From assembly GCA_034521495.1 (NCBI GenBank), contig JAXHMK010000004.1, forward strand, positions 248,001-312,000: a stretch of DNA of 64,000 nucleotides, in the 5' to 3' direction. Position 1 is the first letter of the stretch. Every line of letters begins with the position of its first letter. The DNA comes from Balneolaceae bacterium (lineage in GTDB: Bacteria; Bacteroidota; Rhodothermia; Balneolales; Balneolaceae). Shown one piece after another: positions 10,807 to 31,241 of this stretch. The notes under the pieces were generated by a model. That model saw nothing but the letters and a program-made list of their open reading frames with translations. It was not told the origin of the DNA and made no database searches. The position numbers and the translations under genes are program-made.

Positions 10807-12243
10807 TCACTGTTGCGCGTAAGCACGCACATTTGCCATATCTACCATCAGATCGAAGAGGTCTGTATTTTTAACGAAGTTCGGTAAACGGTCGCTGCCC
10901 GGACCCCAGGCGGCAAGTTCTACATAGTCAGCGGTATGGTTGGTACTCATAAAGTAGATCCCGTTGTAGTTGGCAAGTACTCCGGATAGTACAGCACCTG
11001 CTCCCGACCGATACCGGAACGGCGCCTCAAATTGTCCCCGAAATGCCTGCCGTACCATTCCAGCTTCTTTTCCTGTAATTTGAGTCTGGGTAGCAACCTC
11101 AACAGCGTTGCGAATCTGAGAAGCGGTGGGGGTGCCGGTACTCAACTCATCATACAACCACTCAAAGCTGTGTTTGTAATCAAACAGCGTTTCCAGGCTT
11201 TCATCAGAATCTAAATATCGGTCTCCCATTCCGCTTAAACCAGGATTCGAGTTTCCGTGATCGGTTGCTAATATCACAAGAGTATCGTCTCGGTTTTCCG
11301 TGTAATCCATCACAACCTTTATGGCATCATCAAAAGCGATCTGGTCGTAGACTAAACCGGCGGCATCATTTGCATGAGCGGCATGATCAACCCGGGCCCC
11401 TTCAATTTGAATCAGAAATCCATCTGAATTTTGTTCAAGACGCTCCAGTGCTGCCGAGGTCATCTCTGCAAGTGTAGGAACATTTTGCTGCAATTGCGGA
11501 ATTGTTTGATGGTCGATGGTATAGGGCATATGTGAATCAGAAAAAATACCCAGTAATTTCCCGTTTCGCCCTGCACTTGAAAGTTGAGATTTATCTTTGA
11601 CAACTGTATATCCGTTTGCTTCAAATTCACGATAAAGATCAATACCGTCGGCACGCATACCCGGATCAAAATGACGATTTCCTCCACCCATCAACAGATC
11701 GTAACGTCTTTCGGCATACTGTTCGGCGATCTCATCCTCCATGTTTCGGGATGACATATTTATACCAAATCCGGCCGGGGTGGCATGAGTAATACGAGCA
11801 GTGGTGACGAGTCCGGTAGATTTTCCTGCATCTCTGAATATTTCACAGATGGTTTTGTACTCCTCATCGTTTGGGCCCCAGTTTACAGCACCGTTATTAA
11901 TTCTCTGGCCCGATCCCCAGGAAGATGCTGCCGCTGCAGAATCGGTTACAACGGAATCTAAAGATGCCATATCCATCAACCCGCGGTGGTATTCACGGTC
12001 GGATTCATAAAGCTGTATCCAGTTTGTTTTTTCGCCAAATTGCTTCTGTTTTACGATATCAGCAAGTGCCATCGTTCCGGAACTCATGCCGTCAGTAACA
12101 AGAAAAATCACATTTTTTGCATCACCGAATTCGGAACTTATTTCCTTTTGTGCATTGTTTTTCCCCAACAACCCACTGCCTAATGCCAGGCTTGAGAGGG
12201 CTCCTGTTTTTAAAAAATCACGGCGGCTAAATTGATTACTCAT
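10807..12243 (-). CDS. Alkaline phosphatase (PhoA superfamily, Tat-exported)
   Basis: This 478-residue secreted phosphomonoesterase has a twin-arginine signal (SRRDFLKTG, then a hydrophobic segment to about residue 28). The catalytic centre is recognisable: metal ligand D51 in VIFLVTDGMSSG and nucleophile S102 in TDSAAAASSWGSG. The downstream metal ligands are EGARVDHAAHAND and ATDHGNSNPG. It likely releases phosphate from organic esters in the periplasm or outside the cell. It is 271 bp upstream of the RraA-like gene on the same strand. No Pho-box-like sequence could be identified with confidence. Confidence 0.93.
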   Translation of the reverse strand: MSNQFSRRDFLKTGALSSLALGSGLLGKNNAQKEISSEFGDAKNVIFLVTDGMSSGTMALADIVKQKQFGEKTNWIQLYESDREYHRGLMDMASLDSVVTDSAAAASSWGSGQRINNGAVNWGPNDEEYKTICEIFRDAGKSTGLVTTARITHATPAGFGINMSSRNMEDEIAEQYAERRYDLLMGGGNRHFDPGMRADGIDLYREFEANGYTVVKDKSQLSSAGRNGKLLGIFSDSHMPYTIDHQTIPQLQQNVPTLAEMTSAALERLEQNSDGFLIQIEGARVDHAAHANDAAGLVYDQIAFDDAIKVVMDYTENRDDTLVILATDHGNSNPGLSGMGDRYLDSDESLETLFDYKHSFEWLYDELSTGTPTASQIRNAVEVATQTQITGKEAGMVRQAFRGQFEAPFRYRSGAGAVLSGVLANYNGIYFMSTNHTADYVELAAWGPGSDRLPNFVKNTDLFDLMVDMANVRAYAQQ

Positions 12244-23707: not shown

Positions 23708-24355
23708 ATGAAGATTACAATTGTTGGCGCACACGGAAGTATTGCCATGTTACTGCACCCAATGTTAATTGAAGCAGGGCATTCAGTCAGAGGAATCATC
23801 CGAAAAGAGGAACAGGCAGATGATCTGCGTGAACTCGGGGTTGAACCTGTTGTTGCAGATATCGAAAAACTGGATGACATTTCGGAAGCAGTGGGAAACG
23901 TAGATGCTGTTCTTTTTGCCGCAGGAGCAGGGCCGGGAAGTGGCGCAGCCCGAAAATGGACGGTAGATCGTGATGGCGCCATCAAACTGATGGAAGCCTG
24001 CCACAAAAACGGCATTGACCGATATCTCATCATCAGCGCGATGGGACTCGACGAACCCCGCGGAAGTGAAGTGTTTAAAGTCTATCAGAAAGCAAAAGCA
24101 GAAGCCGACAAAGCCCTTCGAAAGAGCGGCCTGGATTACACTATCGTAAAACCGGGACGGCTGACGGATGAACCGGGTACCGGAAAGGTTTCTATCGGTA
24201 AGAATTTAGAACGTGGTGAAATTCCGCGGGAGGATGTAGCTGCGGTTTTGGCAAGGGTTTTTGAATCGGACGAAACCATTGGTATGGAGTTTGATTTGGT
24301 GAAGGGAGAAAAGCCTATCGATAAAAACCTTTTCAGCAAGACAAAAAATTTATAA
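23708..24355 (+). CDS. NAD(P)-binding SDR protein (YtfG/atypical SDR)
   Basis: This 215-residue single-domain Rossmann-fold protein has an N-terminal dinucleotide-binding loop (MKITIVGAHGSIAMLL, about 5-15). An Asp strand (PVVADIEKLDD) and the AVLFAAGAGPGSG region characteristic of atypical short-chain dehydrogenases follow. The catalytic YxxxK-like motif appears as VYQKAKAEADK, preceded by ISAMGLD. Relatives include YtfG-like and SDR_a5 NAD(P)H-binding proteins. The substrate is unknown. It precedes the lasso-peptide locus by about 107 bp but is not a known part of such loci. Confidence 0.85.
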   Translation: MKITIVGAHGSIAMLLHPMLIEAGHSVRGIIRKEEQADDLRELGVEPVVADIEKLDDISEAVGNVDAVLFAAGAGPGSGAARKWTVDRDGAIKLMEACHKNGIDRYLIISAMGLDEPRGSEVFKVYQKAKAEADKALRKSGLDYTIVKPGRLTDEPGTGKVSIGKNLERGEIPREDVAAVLARVFESDETIGMEFDLVKGEKPIDKNLFSKTKNL

Positions 24356-24462: not shown

Positions 24463-24618
24463 ATGGGCGTACAAAAAACATCTACAGAAGACATTAAAAA
24501 ATGGGAATCTCCGACAATCATAGAACTTGATATTTCTGATACAAAATTTGGCGAACAGGGTGATGATGACGGAGATGGCTTTGGGGAAGGAGATATCAAT
24601 CCTCCTCCACGAAGTTAA
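24463..24618 (+). CDS. Lasso-peptide precursor (A)
   Basis: This 51-residue peptide is too short for usual gene calling. It begins MGVQKTSTEDIKKWESPTII, a lasso leader with the aromatic-x-x-Pro pattern (WESP at 14-17) that binds the PqqD-like RRE. A Thr at residue 27 would be the conserved -2 residue of the leader. Cleavage after Lys28 would give a 23-residue core starting FGEQGDDDGDG and ending PPPRS, with Asp at core positions 6, 7, 8 and 10 as possible ring acceptors. A start at Gly30 is the alternative. It is identified chiefly by position, directly upstream of the B2 protease, cyclase and B1 genes. Confidence 0.82.
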   Translation: MGVQKTSTEDIKKWESPTIIELDISDTKFGEQGDDDGDGFGEGDINPPPRS

Positions 24619-24702: not shown

Positions 24703-25137
24703 ATGAAATGGGAAGCTCTAAAAATCTTTATCAAAAAACCAATTTATGAGAAATTTCATCTCATAAAAATCAGTGCATACGTTGCCTGGTATCGTTTTTT
24801 CATTTTGAGCTTTTCTTTTAAGAAACTTTCCAAAAAACTTGGGGAACTGAATACGATACCTCTGCAAGCCGATAGCAAACCGGAAACTTTCAACCTTGCA
24901 GACAAGATAAGGCATGTCAGCCAGGTTGTGCCGTGGGAGTCAAAATGCCTGGTTCAAGCTGTCGTTGCAAAAATTTTGTTACGAAAAAGGGGGATCGAAA
25001 GCACTCTCTATCTCGGAGTTCGAAAAGCAGAAGATGGTTCATCGCTTGAAGCACACGCCTGGCTGGACGTGGGCAATCAAACCATTCTGGGTGGAGATGT
25101 CTCCGATCAGTTTACTGTGGTTTCGAGTTATACGTAA
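24703..25137 (+). CDS. Lasso-peptide leader protease (B2, transglutaminase-like)
   Basis: This 144-residue member of the Transglut_core3/lasso B2 family removes the precursor leader. The catalytic triad fits C82 (PWESKCLVQAVVAKILL), H118 (LEAHAWLDV) and D122. The surrounding motif RGIESTLYLGVRK is typical of B2 proteins. It lies 84 bp after the precursor gene. The cyclase gene starts 18 bp downstream, so they form one transcription unit. It appears complete. Confidence 0.92.
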   Translation: MKWEALKIFIKKPIYEKFHLIKISAYVAWYRFFILSFSFKKLSKKLGELNTIPLQADSKPETFNLADKIRHVSQVVPWESKCLVQAVVAKILLRKRGIESTLYLGVRKAEDGSSLEAHAWLDVGNQTILGGDVSDQFTVVSSYT

Positions 25138-25155: not shown

Positions 25156-27096
25156 ATGAGTGCAATCTTTGGGTTCTGTTCTTTTGATGATTTACCGACA
25201 TCGCATATCGAACAGAACATTCAAAAAATGAAGGAAGCACTCGATCTATGGGCTCCCGATGGTTTCAAAACCATTATTACCGATTCGGCTGGTTTTGGTA
25301 TTGCTGTCCAGGCTTTGCGGGATGTAGATCAACATCATGCTGCCCCCGATTTCATATCAAAAATCAGATCTCATCCTGTTTACCGCTTACCGCACGTCTT
25401 GATAACCAGAGAAGAATTGATTGAACGGTCCTTACATCAAAAAATCAAACCAAAGCACGATTCAGAACTGATTCTGGAACAATATCTTCAAAATGGATAA
25501 AATGCTCCTCAGACATTGATGGGCGACTGGGCATTTGCCGCTTTCGACTCAAGAAAAAAACAATTGACTCTTGCCCGCGATCACATCGGGAATACGGCCG
25601 TTTATTACACGCGAAATCGTTCGTTTGTTGCATTTGCACCTACGCCTCATGCACTGCTTGCCCTCGAGGGTGTTTCAAATGAACTGGACGAATGGAAACT
25701 TGCCTGCGACATGGCCCGGTTTCCTCAACCTGAAACGGCCGATCATACTAAATGGAAAGAAATACGGCAGCTTTTACCCTCTCATCAATTGTCAGCCGAC
25801 TCCCAAAATCTCTCTGTGGAGCGTTATTGGTCGTTTGATGAAATACCCTCTGTTCGTTTCAATTCTGATGAGGAGTATTATGAACAATTTCGAAAAGTGA
25901 TGAGCCGGGCTGTTCAAACCCGAATCGAGGGATATAGAAATGTAGGAACCACCTTAAGTTCCGGTTTTGATTCCGGTGCTGTAACTGCCTTTGCCGCAAA
26001 ACTTCTTGGCGAAGAAAACAGATCGCTTTCTGCCTACACCTCAGTACCCCTCTACAAAAATGTAGAAGGTATGCGGGAAAGTGTGGTTGATGAATGGCCG
26101 ATTGCACACAGCCACACTCGTTTATATCCCAATATCAAGCATATACCGGTTGACGGTCAGAGCTCCGCTCCGCATCAGGTTTTGAAGAAAATTGTGTATG
26201 AATACGGGGAAACCGTGCTTACAACGGGGAATGCATTTTGGATTGAAGAGATCCTTCAGGAAGCCAGCGAAGATGGAATACAGGTTTTGCTGACCGGTCA
26301 GATGGGGAATGGCGGTATCTCCTGGAATGGCAGCCGAAACCAAATTTTGTACCATTTTTTAGAAGGCCATTGGAAAACGGGAATTACTTCAGTGAAAAGT
26401 TTTAAAGCAAACTACGGTGTAAGCTGGTACAAGGTTCTAAAGTACCTTTTTTTATGGCAGCTTTTATCACCTGTCAAAAAAACGTTGAAGCAGATTGCAA
26501 ACCCAAATAAACCTCTTTGGAGCCCTGCTGCTCCCATAAATCCAGATTTTGCCGAACGCATGAGTTTAAACACTGCGATCCGTGGATCATTATTGACCGA
26601 ATATAAACACACACTGGAAAGTCCCGGCAAGAGCAGAGTTCAAATTATGGATGTAAATGCTCCTATCGTCTGCGCAACCTGGCATCGAGACGGAGCTAAT
26701 CATACTATGGATATTCTTGATCCAACGGCTGATCTCCGATTATTAAAGTTTTGCTTTGGGATTCCGGATGAGCTTCACGCAAAAGAAGGAAGGCAACGTC
26801 TCCTAATCAAAAATGCACTGAAAGATATTGTCCCTGATGAGGTTTTAAACTACAAATACAAAGGCCGTCAGGCAGCGGATATTGGCCTGCGGTTGCTGGA
26901 TTATAAAGAGGAACTGAAATCCGAGATCGATTCTATATCAGACATCCCAGCTGTTCAGGAGTATCTTGATATTTCCTCCCTTTACAAATCTTTGGAAAAT
27001 TTATCTCCGGATTTATCCTATTCAGAAAGCTATCAACATTCCACTCGTTTGTTATCCGGTCTGATGTATGGATATTTCCTGGATAGATATGGGTAA
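25156..27096 (+). pseudogene. Lasso cyclase (C, asparagine-synthetase-like) interrupted by an in-frame stop
   Basis: Read through, this is a 645-residue asparagine synthetase-like macrolactam synthetase that would adenylate an Asp side chain and close the lasso ring. A TAA at 25498-25500 stops it after residue 114, but the frame is unchanged and homology resumes at once (LQNG, stop, NAPQTLMGDWAFAAFD). The N-terminal domain starts MSAIFGF, with Ser where glutamine-dependent synthetases have Cys2, as in lasso cyclases. The pyrophosphatase motif reads TTLSSGFDSGAV at about 265-276. TAA is one substitution away from AAA, GAA or CAA. Restart at the ATG at 25516 would give a 526-residue protein lacking most of the N-domain. 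Confidence 0.88.
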
Positions 27097-27191: not shown

Positions 27192-27467
27192 ATGAATCGG
27201 GATACAACAATCATTCGAACCAACAAAGCACTGGTCTCATCCATTGAGGATGAACTGGTGATGTTTGATGCAGAAGCCGGCCAATACTACGGGCTGAACA
27301 ACGTCGGTACTGCGGTTTGGAATCACCTTGAAACGAAAAAAACGGTTGACGAACTCGCGGAGGTTCTCACCACAGAGTTTGACATCACCGTAGATGAATG
27401 CCGCAAGGAGTTAATTGAGTTTCTGCCCGAGCTTGAGGAGAAAGGGTTGATTGAGGTTGTAGAATAA
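27192..27467 (+). CDS. PqqD-like lasso leader-binding protein (B1/RRE)
   Basis: This is a 91-residue winged-helix RiPP recognition element. Family features are DELVMFDAEAGQYYGLNNVG, then AVWNHLETKKTVDELAEVL and a C-terminal helix FLPELEEKGLIEVVE. In lasso pathways this protein captures the leader peptide and presents it to the B2 protease. It lies 95 bp after the cyclase, giving the order A-B2-C-B1. No ABC transporter (D) gene follows. The next gene is on the opposite strand. Confidence 0.92.
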   Translation: MNRDTTIIRTNKALVSSIEDELVMFDAEAGQYYGLNNVGTAVWNHLETKKTVDELAEVLTTEFDITVDECRKELIEFLPELEEKGLIEVVE

Positions 27468-28030: not shown

Positions 28031-28990
28031 ATGAAAAAAATTCGAATTGGAGTTATCAGTACCGCAAAAATTGGCGTTCAAAAAGTGATCCCGGCGATGC
28101 AGCAAGCCGAACGTTGCGAAGTTGCAGGAATCGCATCCCGAAATTTGAAAAGAGCAAAATCTACAGCCGATGAACTTTCCATTCCCAAAGCGTATGGATC
28201 GTACGAAGATCTTCTTGAAGATCCCGATATCGATGCGGTCTATATACCCCTTCCCAATCATCTGCATGTGCCGTGGTCAATTAAATCTCTTGAAGCTGGT
28301 AAGCATGTACTCTGCGAAAAACCTATTGGAATGGACGCTGAGGAGGCACGAACATTGTTGGCTGTCTCCAAAGAATATCCGGATCAAAAAATTTCTGAAG
28401 CCTTTATGTATCGTCAGCATCCCCGGTGGAAGCGAACAGCTGAGCTGGTCCACTCGGGTGCCATCGGAGAACTTAAAGCGGTTCACTCCTTCTTCTCCTA
28501 TTACAATGATGATCCTGAAAACTATCGCAATAGTGCCGAAATGGGAGGCGGGGGATTGATGGATATCGGGTGTTATTCGATCTCACTGGCCCGTCTTCTG
28601 TTTGACAGCGAGCCACTTAGTGTTCATGGCGAACTGGAGTACGATCCCGAATTTAAAACCGACCGATTGGCATCCGGATTACTGCGCTTTGAAAACGGAA
28701 CATCTGTTTTTACATGTGCTACTCAATGCTTTAAAGATCAGTATGTAAAAGTGTTTGGTACCAAAGGAAAAATCGAAATGGATTGGCCGTTTAACCCCGA
28801 CTTTACAAAAACCCAACGACTACAGGTTGTAATCGACGATGAGGAAACCATTGAGGAGTTTGCCCCTGTTGACCATTTTACACTTCAGGCTGAGGCATTT
28901 GCGAAAAGTATTTTAGAAGACGGCCCCGTTCCCGTTTCGCTGGAGGATTCCATCAAAAATATGGAAGTAATTGATAAGATGAGGGCGTAG
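28031..28990 (+). CDS. Gfo/Idh/MocA family oxidoreductase
   Basis: This is a 319-residue NAD(P)-dependent sugar dehydrogenase-type protein. It has an N-terminal Rossmann fold (MKKIRIGVISTAKIGVQKV), the family's PLPNHLHVPW segment and the conserved catalytic-Lys motif CEKPIGMDAEEA (about 97-108). A C-terminal GFO_IDH_MocA_C domain follows, containing GGGLMDIGCYSISLARLLF. Cytosolic and single-gene. The substrate is probably a sugar or polyol but is not determined by the sequence. Confidence 0.93.
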   Translation: MKKIRIGVISTAKIGVQKVIPAMQQAERCEVAGIASRNLKRAKSTADELSIPKAYGSYEDLLEDPDIDAVYIPLPNHLHVPWSIKSLEAGKHVLCEKPIGMDAEEARTLLAVSKEYPDQKISEAFMYRQHPRWKRTAELVHSGAIGELKAVHSFFSYYNDDPENYRNSAEMGGGGLMDIGCYSISLARLLFDSEPLSVHGELEYDPEFKTDRLASGLLRFENGTSVFTCATQCFKDQYVKVFGTKGKIEMDWPFNPDFTKTQRLQVVIDDEETIEEFAPVDHFTLQAEAFAKSILEDGPVPVSLEDSIKNMEVIDKMRA

Positions 28991-30004: not shown

Positions 30005-31241
30005 TTAAAGTTGTTGATACACATTTTCAACATGATCTGCAGTATCCATTGCAAACATAGGCGCAGTTGTTAGTTTTCCGGTTTCTACGGAATGGTAGCC
30101 GTCGTACGATGTAACACCAATGTTTGATCGTTCATGGAGCCGGCTGTTTTTATTATCAACGTCTGTTCTTCCATGTGCAACAATAATGCCTGCATCTACA
30201 ATTTTAGGAGTGCAATTTCTAATGGCCGGGTACCATTTTTCTGTTTCACCAATCAATTTTTCTGATATTTCATCAAAATCCTTCTTCGGCACATCTCCCC
30301 GGCTTGGCTCATTCCACGATTCCGGCGGTTCAATACTGCTCGACCAACCACGGCACGCATCCGGATACCAAGATATATAGGCGGTGTTATCCGGCCTAAT
30401 AACAACATCACCAAATTTGCCAATCACCATAGTTGCAGAGGGACAGTTATTCATCTCTTCAGGAATATCAGCAATGACCCTGTATTTAAGCCGATGTAAA
30501 ATTTCCTTCGGCGGCGATATTCCTAACGTTTCATCTAATCGATATTTAGAGGTCCATGTAGCATTTACAACCTGTAGCGACTTTTTTTTCCATGTTCTTT
30601 TTTGATGTTCCCCCTCAATCACATAACCGTTCCCGTTTTTTGAGATTGCCTGAATTTTGCGGCCTCCCAAAAAAGTAATATTTGAATGATTATATATAGC
30701 TTTTCGAACATGTTTAGCGAGTATAAATGTATCTATGGCCAACTCACTGGTGCTAAATCCACCTTGTAGGTGATCAGTGTTAAAGTGTTCCGCAAGGGTC
30801 TCTTCAGAACATCTGTGAACCAAGCAATCCGGTGTTCTTCCTAAATAGTGCAACGATTCTTTTTCTGCTCTCTCCCTGTACAATTCCTCCAGTTGATGAT
30901 AGCGTTCTTCAAGCTGTTCGGTATCCAAAAAAGACTGGTTTGATACCAGAGTAGTAGAATGGCGTGCCAATATTGAGATCTTTTGCTTCTTTTCCAATCC
31001 ACCTCGACATGTAAGGAGCAAATCGTAGAGATGCTTTAAGCATAAGTTTCGGTGTTTCAAATTCAGGATCATTTACATACACCAACCCCAAATGAACCTT
31101 TCCCTCATTTCGAAAACTTGATCGGTTGAACGGCACCGAGTCCTGATCTAACAAATCAACGGAGTATCCCCGATTTGCCAGTTCCAGGGCAATGCAGCAC
31201 CCTTGTACACCCGCACCAATAACAGTTATTTCTTTCTTCAT
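30005..31241 (-). pseudogene. Frameshifted FAD-dependent oxidoreductase (DAO family)
   Basis: The gene starts MKKEITVIGAGVQGCCIALE, an FAD-binding GxGxxG fold with ELANRGYSVDLLDQD after it. It reads normally to about residue 97 (LNIGTPFYY), where the frame is lost near 30950. The continuation in another frame (LVSNQSFLDTEQLEERY..) runs uninterrupted to 30005. The joined product would be about 410 residues. One indel explains the break. It resembles D-amino-acid-oxidase-like proteins found beside glycosyltransferases, and the decayed GT2 gene directly downstream fits that. Confidence 0.85.

Follow-up and report, generated by a model that had tools for sequence, protein, structure and literature searches.

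A lasso-type precursor beside B2, C and B1 genes in a Balneolaceae bacterium and a possible shared B1/B2 hub for dispersed precursors

Introduction

HprK-like kinases and NTP transferases take part in lasso peptide pathways as well as in cyclase-free pathways to linear peptides with a common leader motif, [Y/W]xxPx[L/V/I/A/F/Y], as described in PMC13381572. According to the same paper, WxxP marks paeninodin-like precursors, RREs are less strict in other phyla, the linear polyphosphorylated peptides (LPPs) are cyclase-free and occur in Bacillota only, and the roles of both paeninodins and LPPs are unknown. In the Bsf system of Bradymonas, which yields a phosphorylated lasso peptide, B1 aids the kinase as well as B2 and an 8-membered ring is closed to Asp8 (PMC10368454).

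The window, meaning the whole stretch of 64,000 nucleotides analysed here, contains a cluster that shares with paeninodin-like lasso peptides the WxxPxI leader, Thr at position -2, the gene set A, B1, B2 and C, and cores ending in Ser, to which the related cluster of genome G064 adds an HprK-like gene. Different from paeninodin-like clusters, the core of the window type is rich in Asp and Gly and starts with Phe or Met, the C gene of the window is interrupted, and no kinase, NTP transferase or transporter adjoins the window cluster. The host is also not a member of Bacillota, to which paeninodins are restricted according to PMC13381572.

A second family of precursors, dispersed over the genomes, resembles the LPPs of that paper in its lasso-like leader motif, putative RRE, HprK-like kinase and NTP transferase and, in eight of the ten genus genomes that have it, in the lack of a lasso-type cyclase. 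LPPs feature a YxxP leader, an SpI-like signal peptidase and compact Bacillota clusters, whereas the dispersed family carries WxxP in 35/35 complete precursors (the search was keyed on W..P) and presumably uses a B2-type peptidase, its genes are scattered behind cargo genes of type IX secretion (T9SS), and its cores begin with Gln and end with Ser. The described Bsf system, for which an 8-membered ring and helper role of B1 are points of likeness, differs in Ile at -2, YxxP, Gly1 and a compact cluster. In the literature searched, no paper joins 'Balneolaceae' and 'lasso peptide' and none joins 'type IX secretion' and 'lasso peptide'; T9SS and RiPP occur together as whole words in four papers.

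Precursor A and its gene cluster

An unannotated lasso precursor encoded by a 51-codon ORF at 24463-24618, with WESP in the leader, Thr at -2 and a 23-aa core, had been proposed in an earlier note made from the letters of the window, and the sequence confirmed each of these points. The features of the locus are as follows.

23708-24355, + strand: NAD(P)-binding protein (PF13460), a neighbour that marks the common place and stands outside the pathway
24463-24618, + strand: precursor A, 51 aa, MGVQKTSTEDIKKWESPTIIELDISDTKFGEQGDDDGDGFGEGDINPPPRS, from ORF reading
24463-24546, + strand: predicted leader, residues 1-28, with W-E-S-P-T-I as the putative B1/RRE-binding motif and Thr27 at -2
24547-24615, + strand: predicted core, FGEQGDDDGDGFGEGDINPPPRS, with D8 as the predicted ring acid and a C-terminal Ser (from sequence and alignment, with a presumed cleavage site)
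24703-25137, + strand: B2, leader peptidase with a transglutaminase-like fold (NF033537, 84.1 bits, cut-off 33; PF13471, 79.8 bits, cut-off 26)
25156-27096, + strand: C, asparagine-synthetase-like macrolactam cyclase, interrupted (NF033535, PF00733)
27192-27467, + strand: B1, PqqD-like RRE protein (PF05402, 69.1 bits, cut-off 23.4)
28031-28990, + strand: Gfo/Idh/MocA protein (PF01408, PF22725), the neighbour on the opposite flank

The gene order is thus CHRD - NAD(P)-binding - A - B2 - C - B1 - Gfo/Idh, and neither a kinase nor an NTP transferase was found in the cluster at 24-29 kb of the window. WESP occupies residues 14-17 of precursor A, and W14-E-S-P-T-I19 fits [Y/W]xxPx[hydrophobic]. The catalytic residues Cys82 and His118 of B2 are invariant in 12/12 aligned B2 proteins. 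B1 narrowly missed the cut-off of the lasso-specific model NF033536 (73.2 bits against 80) and matched TbiB1 (5v1u) with an E-value of 5.7e-10. Together with the homologues described below, these profile matches support the proposal of a lasso-type precursor beside B2, C and B1.

A spurious ORF, arising from a chance pattern in the gap before B2, would be consistent with the lack of any Pfam or NCBIfam match to precursor A and with the frequency of the loose motif, which was counted 4 times in the whole 64 kb against a shuffled mean of 3.5 (40 shuffles); when core positions 7-9 had to hold an acid, 2 real occurrences compared with a mean of 0.475 and a maximum of 2. Since the loose motif is not special across 64 kb, the weight for precursor A lies on its place and conservation. 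When the 347-nt gap separating B2 from the gene before it was shuffled 4000 times (first order), a + strand ORF of similar leader and tail appeared in just 12 shuffles. Homologues occupy the corresponding position in G052 and G064, between which 7 codons of the A gene differ, 6 of them synonymously, and the two results make a chance ORF very improbable. The ORF at 24463-24618 genuinely encodes the precursor of a lasso-type modified peptide, and its sequence context is best explained if A serves as the precursor of a lasso-type A-B2-C-B1 cluster.

Core, ring size and threading

A core start at Phe29 places Thr27 at -2 and gives a core of 23 aa with Asp at positions 6, 7, 8, 10 and 16, of which those at 7 and 8 agree with the lasso criterion of Asp/Glu at 7-9, given cleavage two residues past Thr. 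The earlier note had allowed rings of 7, 8 or 9 residues. From Phe1 the first two are possible, through D7 or D8, and the third is excluded with Thr at -2, as position 9 is Gly and a 9-ring would require a core beginning at Gly2. Its expectation that the first core residue is not Gly held true, with Phe here and Met in G052 and G064; leepeptin, with Leu1, provides a precedent (PMC6856326).

Precursor A and its two homologues are 38% identical, and 14 alignment columns do not vary, among them W, P, T(-2), GE and D8-G. The cores of G052 and G064, MGEGEGSDGEGYS and MGEGEGTDGEGYS, have 13 aa and start with Met. In the alignment with MGEGEG(S/T)DGEGYS, the window core retains G2, E3, D8, G9 and G11, and Asp8 is the sole acid at ring positions 7-9 common to all three precursors, which points to D8 and hence to an 8-ring. 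Calcium binding by DDDGDG (DxDxDG) was rejected as an explanation, since the motif is not kept in G052 and G064.

In the proposed biosynthesis, B1 would bind the WxxPxI leader, B2 would cleave after the residue next to Thr(-2), and ring closure by C would connect the Phe1 N-terminus with Asp8, so that the predicted product would consist of an 8-ring and a Gly/Asp-rich tail ending PPPRS. An 8-ring leaves a tail of just 5 residues in the 13-aa cores of the relatives, which makes threading doubtful, for the product of A as well. The smallest known lasso peptides have about 14-15 residues.

The interrupted cyclase-like gene

The break in C that the earlier note had seen is one in-frame TAA at 25498-25500, with the frame identical on either side and the gene otherwise open across 646 codons. 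The second half of C scored 206.6 bits with NF033535 (lass_lactam_cya, the best NCBIfam model), below the cut-off of 525, and this curated cyclase cut-off was reached by C in none of 92 genomes. PF00733 matched with 69.1 bits, and the protein is 37% identical to its G064 counterpart, which is open (647 aa), matches the same family below cut-off and has a hydroxyamidotransferase (7ylz) as its best PDB match. Given the in-frame stop, the ring step may be lost in the genome of the window (G000). The stop may also be a sequence error, because further genes nearby are interrupted too.

Two overlapping ORFs in different frames at 30005-31241 of the window (- strand) are maybe one interrupted oxidoreductase, of which the N-terminal piece alone matches Pfam (DAO). 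Interrupted frames, either real lesions or sequence errors, were also observed on contig C4 of G000 at ~230.9-236.3 kb and 242.3-243.6 kb and at L300:3287-4973; the genes concerned encode a T9SS cargo protein, a GntP permease, split into two pieces that align with model positions 4-173 and 256-438, and a third protein, of ~561 aa in congeners.

The same place in congeners

The comparison set consisted of 92 genomes of the family, with 28 genomes in the genus. B2 like that of the window was detected in 12/92, namely 11/28 of the genus (G000 included) and G075. The NAD(P)-binding gene lies 5' of B2 or A at loci L016, L017, L018, L019, L020, L021 and L023, and the Gfo/Idh/MocA gene is found downstream as well at L016, L017, L020 and L021. 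In G052 and G064 the A homologue comes directly after the NAD(P)-binding gene, in the order A, two family-2 glycosyltransferases, an HprK-like gene (below Pfam's cut-off), B2, B1 and C. A profile of the three precursors re-found A in G000 with an E-value of 1.8e-21, A itself being one of its rows, and yielded just these three precursors at E below 0.03 in the 92 genomes. With glycosyltransferases and an HprK-like gene between A and B2, the products of these two loci (L018 and L019) are possibly glycosylated and phosphorylated.

The remaining B2 loci are organised as NAD(P)-binding - B2 - B1 in G066 and G068, as CHRD - B2 - B1 in G062, and as B2 - B1 - NTP transferase on a short contig in G047. 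At the loci of G053, G058 and G065, B2 accompanies the NAD(P)-binding gene and B1 is lacking, the two genes of G065 being separated by an opposite-strand ORF, and in G051 and G075 the surroundings of B2 are different. Neither A nor C was found at B2 loci outside G000, G052 and G064 (tblastn, E up to 1). Conservation of the ORF beside B2, C and B1 in relatives, a test that had been set in advance, was thus seen in G052 and G064 but not in five other congeners that share the neighbourhood (G053, G058, G065, G066 and G068), where A and C are missing.

A decaying, functionless cluster, in which C is broken, A would go next and B2 and B1 are remnants, with the process further along in congeners, would account for these missing genes and for the state of C, which is present in 3/11 genus B2 genomes and interrupted in two of the three (G000 and G052), at differing positions. 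However, the congener B2 and B1 genes without A and C are open, B2 retains its Cys and His, and C of the window is open apart from the one stop. The dN/dS ratios are also well below 1, at 0.10-0.20 for B2 in four pairs among G053, G058, G065, G066 and G068 (NG86, with saturated dS of 1.4-2.9) and 0.06 for B1 of G066/G068 (dS high). Decay is accordingly regarded as quite unlikely. As dN is 0.06 and dS 0.35 for C between G052 and G064, C has been under recent constraint there.

The B1 protein of the window is 82% identical to that of G068 and 78% to that of G066, whereas B2 is only 35% identical to that of G068. AU tests on the B2 tree gave p 0.16 for the window with G066/G068 and p 0.31 for the window with G052/G064. 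Since the position of B2 is ambiguous, yet B1 is so close to that of G068, the A-B2-C part may have a history different from that of B1. Replacement of an older B2 by A-B2-C, as suggested by the contrast between B1 and B2, is not claimed, because grouping of the window with G066 and G068 was not rejected.

A dispersed family of probably cyclase-free precursors

The window-precursor profile also gave weak leader-only matches, which led to a family of dispersed ORFs such as MNKTDWQTPQIIKLDITESTRQLPPPDEPVRS. A profile from seven dispersed precursors, termed A4, was run on 244 genomes of the class and matched in 20 genomes at E <= 0.1, of which ten in the genus (G000, G053, G057, G058, G060, G062, G064, G065, G066 and G068) and G099 were accepted. 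G059 (E 0.024, no precursor on reading) and G052 (E 0.07, lasso A itself) were left out, and the matches outside the genus in G005 and G008 (no precursor), G125, G131, G138, G146 and G231 were not counted. G099 belongs to another family; its precursor clearly fits the set and is preceded by a T9SS tail, and no B2 was found in this genome. In total, 39 places were read, 38 from A4 matches and one in G000 found by eye, and 35 precursors were complete; the four others were leader-only (L244 and L260), at a contig edge (L259) or without a precursor (L262).

The complete precursors have a WxxP...T(-2) leader and cores of 9-16 aa, with up to ten of them in one genome (G065). As 'complete' demanded W..P and Thr 13 or 14 residues further, and 7/35 were rows of the query profile, the free observations are Gln at +1 (35/35), Ser as the last residue (35/35) and PP (32/35). 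The N-terminal Gln could close to pyroglutamate. The window ORF was not among the A4 matches at E <= 0.1, and it has just the leader motif in common with the dispersed set.

Related sets were found in G075 and G125 (another family), where an HprK-like kinase (K), an NTP_transf_5, nucleotidyltransferase-like protein (N) and B2 accompany precursors that follow large genes and have the endings ..PGLPYSPQQVS, ..PPMLPNSPGDQGVS and ..PPMLPNAPEQVS, with no C in the stretch read. In G053, a similar precursor, N and B1 lie on one contig and B2 on another.

Several further groups were noted beside this family. A second Pro-rich group (L155:1714-1875, L024:6581-6745, L157:7074-7256 and 11745-11930) ends in ..FPGMPDAPDQGNS, ..PGLPYSPQQVS and ..PPMLPN(S/A)P..VS. 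The genes upstream are large, and two of them encode cargo of T9SS according to Pfam; K, N and B2 lie close by, and C is absent. Leader-only mini-ORFs without a core (..KKWHKPEIILLDQA, ..KEWQKPVIISLD and ..KEWQKPAIISLD; L305:5797-5901, L299:9313-9390 and G057:C108 near 26940-27000) are flanked in three congeners by the HprK-like gene on one side and a second, distant B1 on the other, and perhaps provide a leader in trans. Eight Bacillota loci (L067, L071, L072, L073, L083, L089, L091 and L092) combine B2 with B1 and kinase-like or NTP-transferase-like genes and mostly WxxP precursors ending in Ser, without a C match at 1e-4 within ~8 kb on each side, and are maybe cyclase-free sets with B2.

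Link to T9SS cargo genes

The ORF upstream of the precursor ended in a T9SS type-A tail for 24 of the 26 dispersed precursors having at least 700 nt upstream, the two exceptions being one precursor in G068 and one in G065, and Pfam and NCBIfam models identified several of the upstream proteins as T9SS cargo. The same tail pattern was seen in 0/239 ORFs of the window and 19 regions not picked for dispersed precursors, a background that refers to this tail type and not to T9SS cargo in general, since a 634-aa protein at L024 is T9SS cargo by PF18962 and was uncaught.

Co-occurrence with K, N, B1 and B2

Four dispersed precursors were located in G000, two on contig C4 (~220.0 and ~230.4 kb) and one each on C2 and C16; three had E-values of 0.0009 to 0.003, and the fourth, seen by eye, was unreported by the A4 search. 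One K (C4:216211-217023) and one N (C4:240900-241907) were found in this genome, upstream of A (C4:272463) on the same contig at distances of 56 kb and 32 kb, the HprK assignment of K scoring 22.6 bits, below Pfam's cut-off of 33.3. The only B2 and B1 found in G000 are those of the window (B1 search at E <= 1e-6).

Among the 28 genomes of the genus, all ten with dispersed precursors have K (11 genomes with K; hypergeometric p 8e-7), N (13; 2e-5) and a B1-like protein (14; 8e-5), eight have B2 (11; 0.002) and two have C (3; 0.28), where the p-values ignore common ancestry and the multiple genes compared, and most genomes are drafts. Lasso-type C is present in G000 and G064 and was not found in the other eight: NF033535 gave no match at 1e-20 in G053, G057, G058, G060 and G065, and only proteins starting with MCGI in G062, G066 and G068. 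These, and the match in G047, were not counted as lasso C, because they start like glutamine-hydrolysing asparagine synthetases. No B2 was detected in G057 and G060 (drafts 91% and 97% complete), which either speaks against common use of B2 or is an effect of draft assembly.

The window could also be taken as an ordinary self-contained lasso cluster, with the stop in C a sequence error and the dispersed precursors handled by a separate pathway that has a B1 and a peptidase of its own. Adjacency of A, B2, C and B1 in the window favours this, as do the open C of G064 alongside A, two glycosyltransferases, the HprK-like gene, B2 and B1, the other interrupted genes of G000, which hint at sequence errors, and a second, more distant B1 near K in G053, G056, G057, G058, G060 and G065, which could be the real partner of the dispersed precursors. 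Such a cluster is nevertheless rather unlikely, as no further B1 or B2 was found in G000, B2 is kept without A or C in five congeners, and dispersed precursors and B2 occur together in 8/10 genomes.

A proposed shared B1/B2 hub

The best reading as a whole, which we hold as probable, is a shared B1/B2 hub to which a lasso-type A/C pair is attached at the window. Judged from the genomes, B1 and B2 of the window probably also serve the scattered short Pro-rich peptides: they would act in trans on dispersed, cyclase-free precursors with a like leader, which is why they probably stay useful, and the absence of other B1/B2 matches suggests this pairing of enzymes and substrates. The dispersed HprK-like kinase and the NTP_transf_5 protein probably tailor the peptides, perhaps on the C-terminal Ser. 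The wider system around B1 and B2 is well supported as a gene family and as a co-occurrence, with a putative biochemistry.

More tentatively, the hub together with K and N might mature cyclase-free peptides that are each usually encoded behind, and co-made with, their own T9SS surface protein and act on or are attached to the surface layer, with the lasso A/C pair of three genomes as a side branch.

The gain from the window alone would be smaller, namely a further lasso-type precursor whose core is unusual and whose cyclase is damaged. If the hub is true, it would explain how lasso peptidases persist without cyclases, and mining tools restricted to the surroundings of B and C would overlook the majority of the products. 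A connection with T9SS cargo, if true, would be the first testable link of a lasso-like pathway to the bacterial surface.
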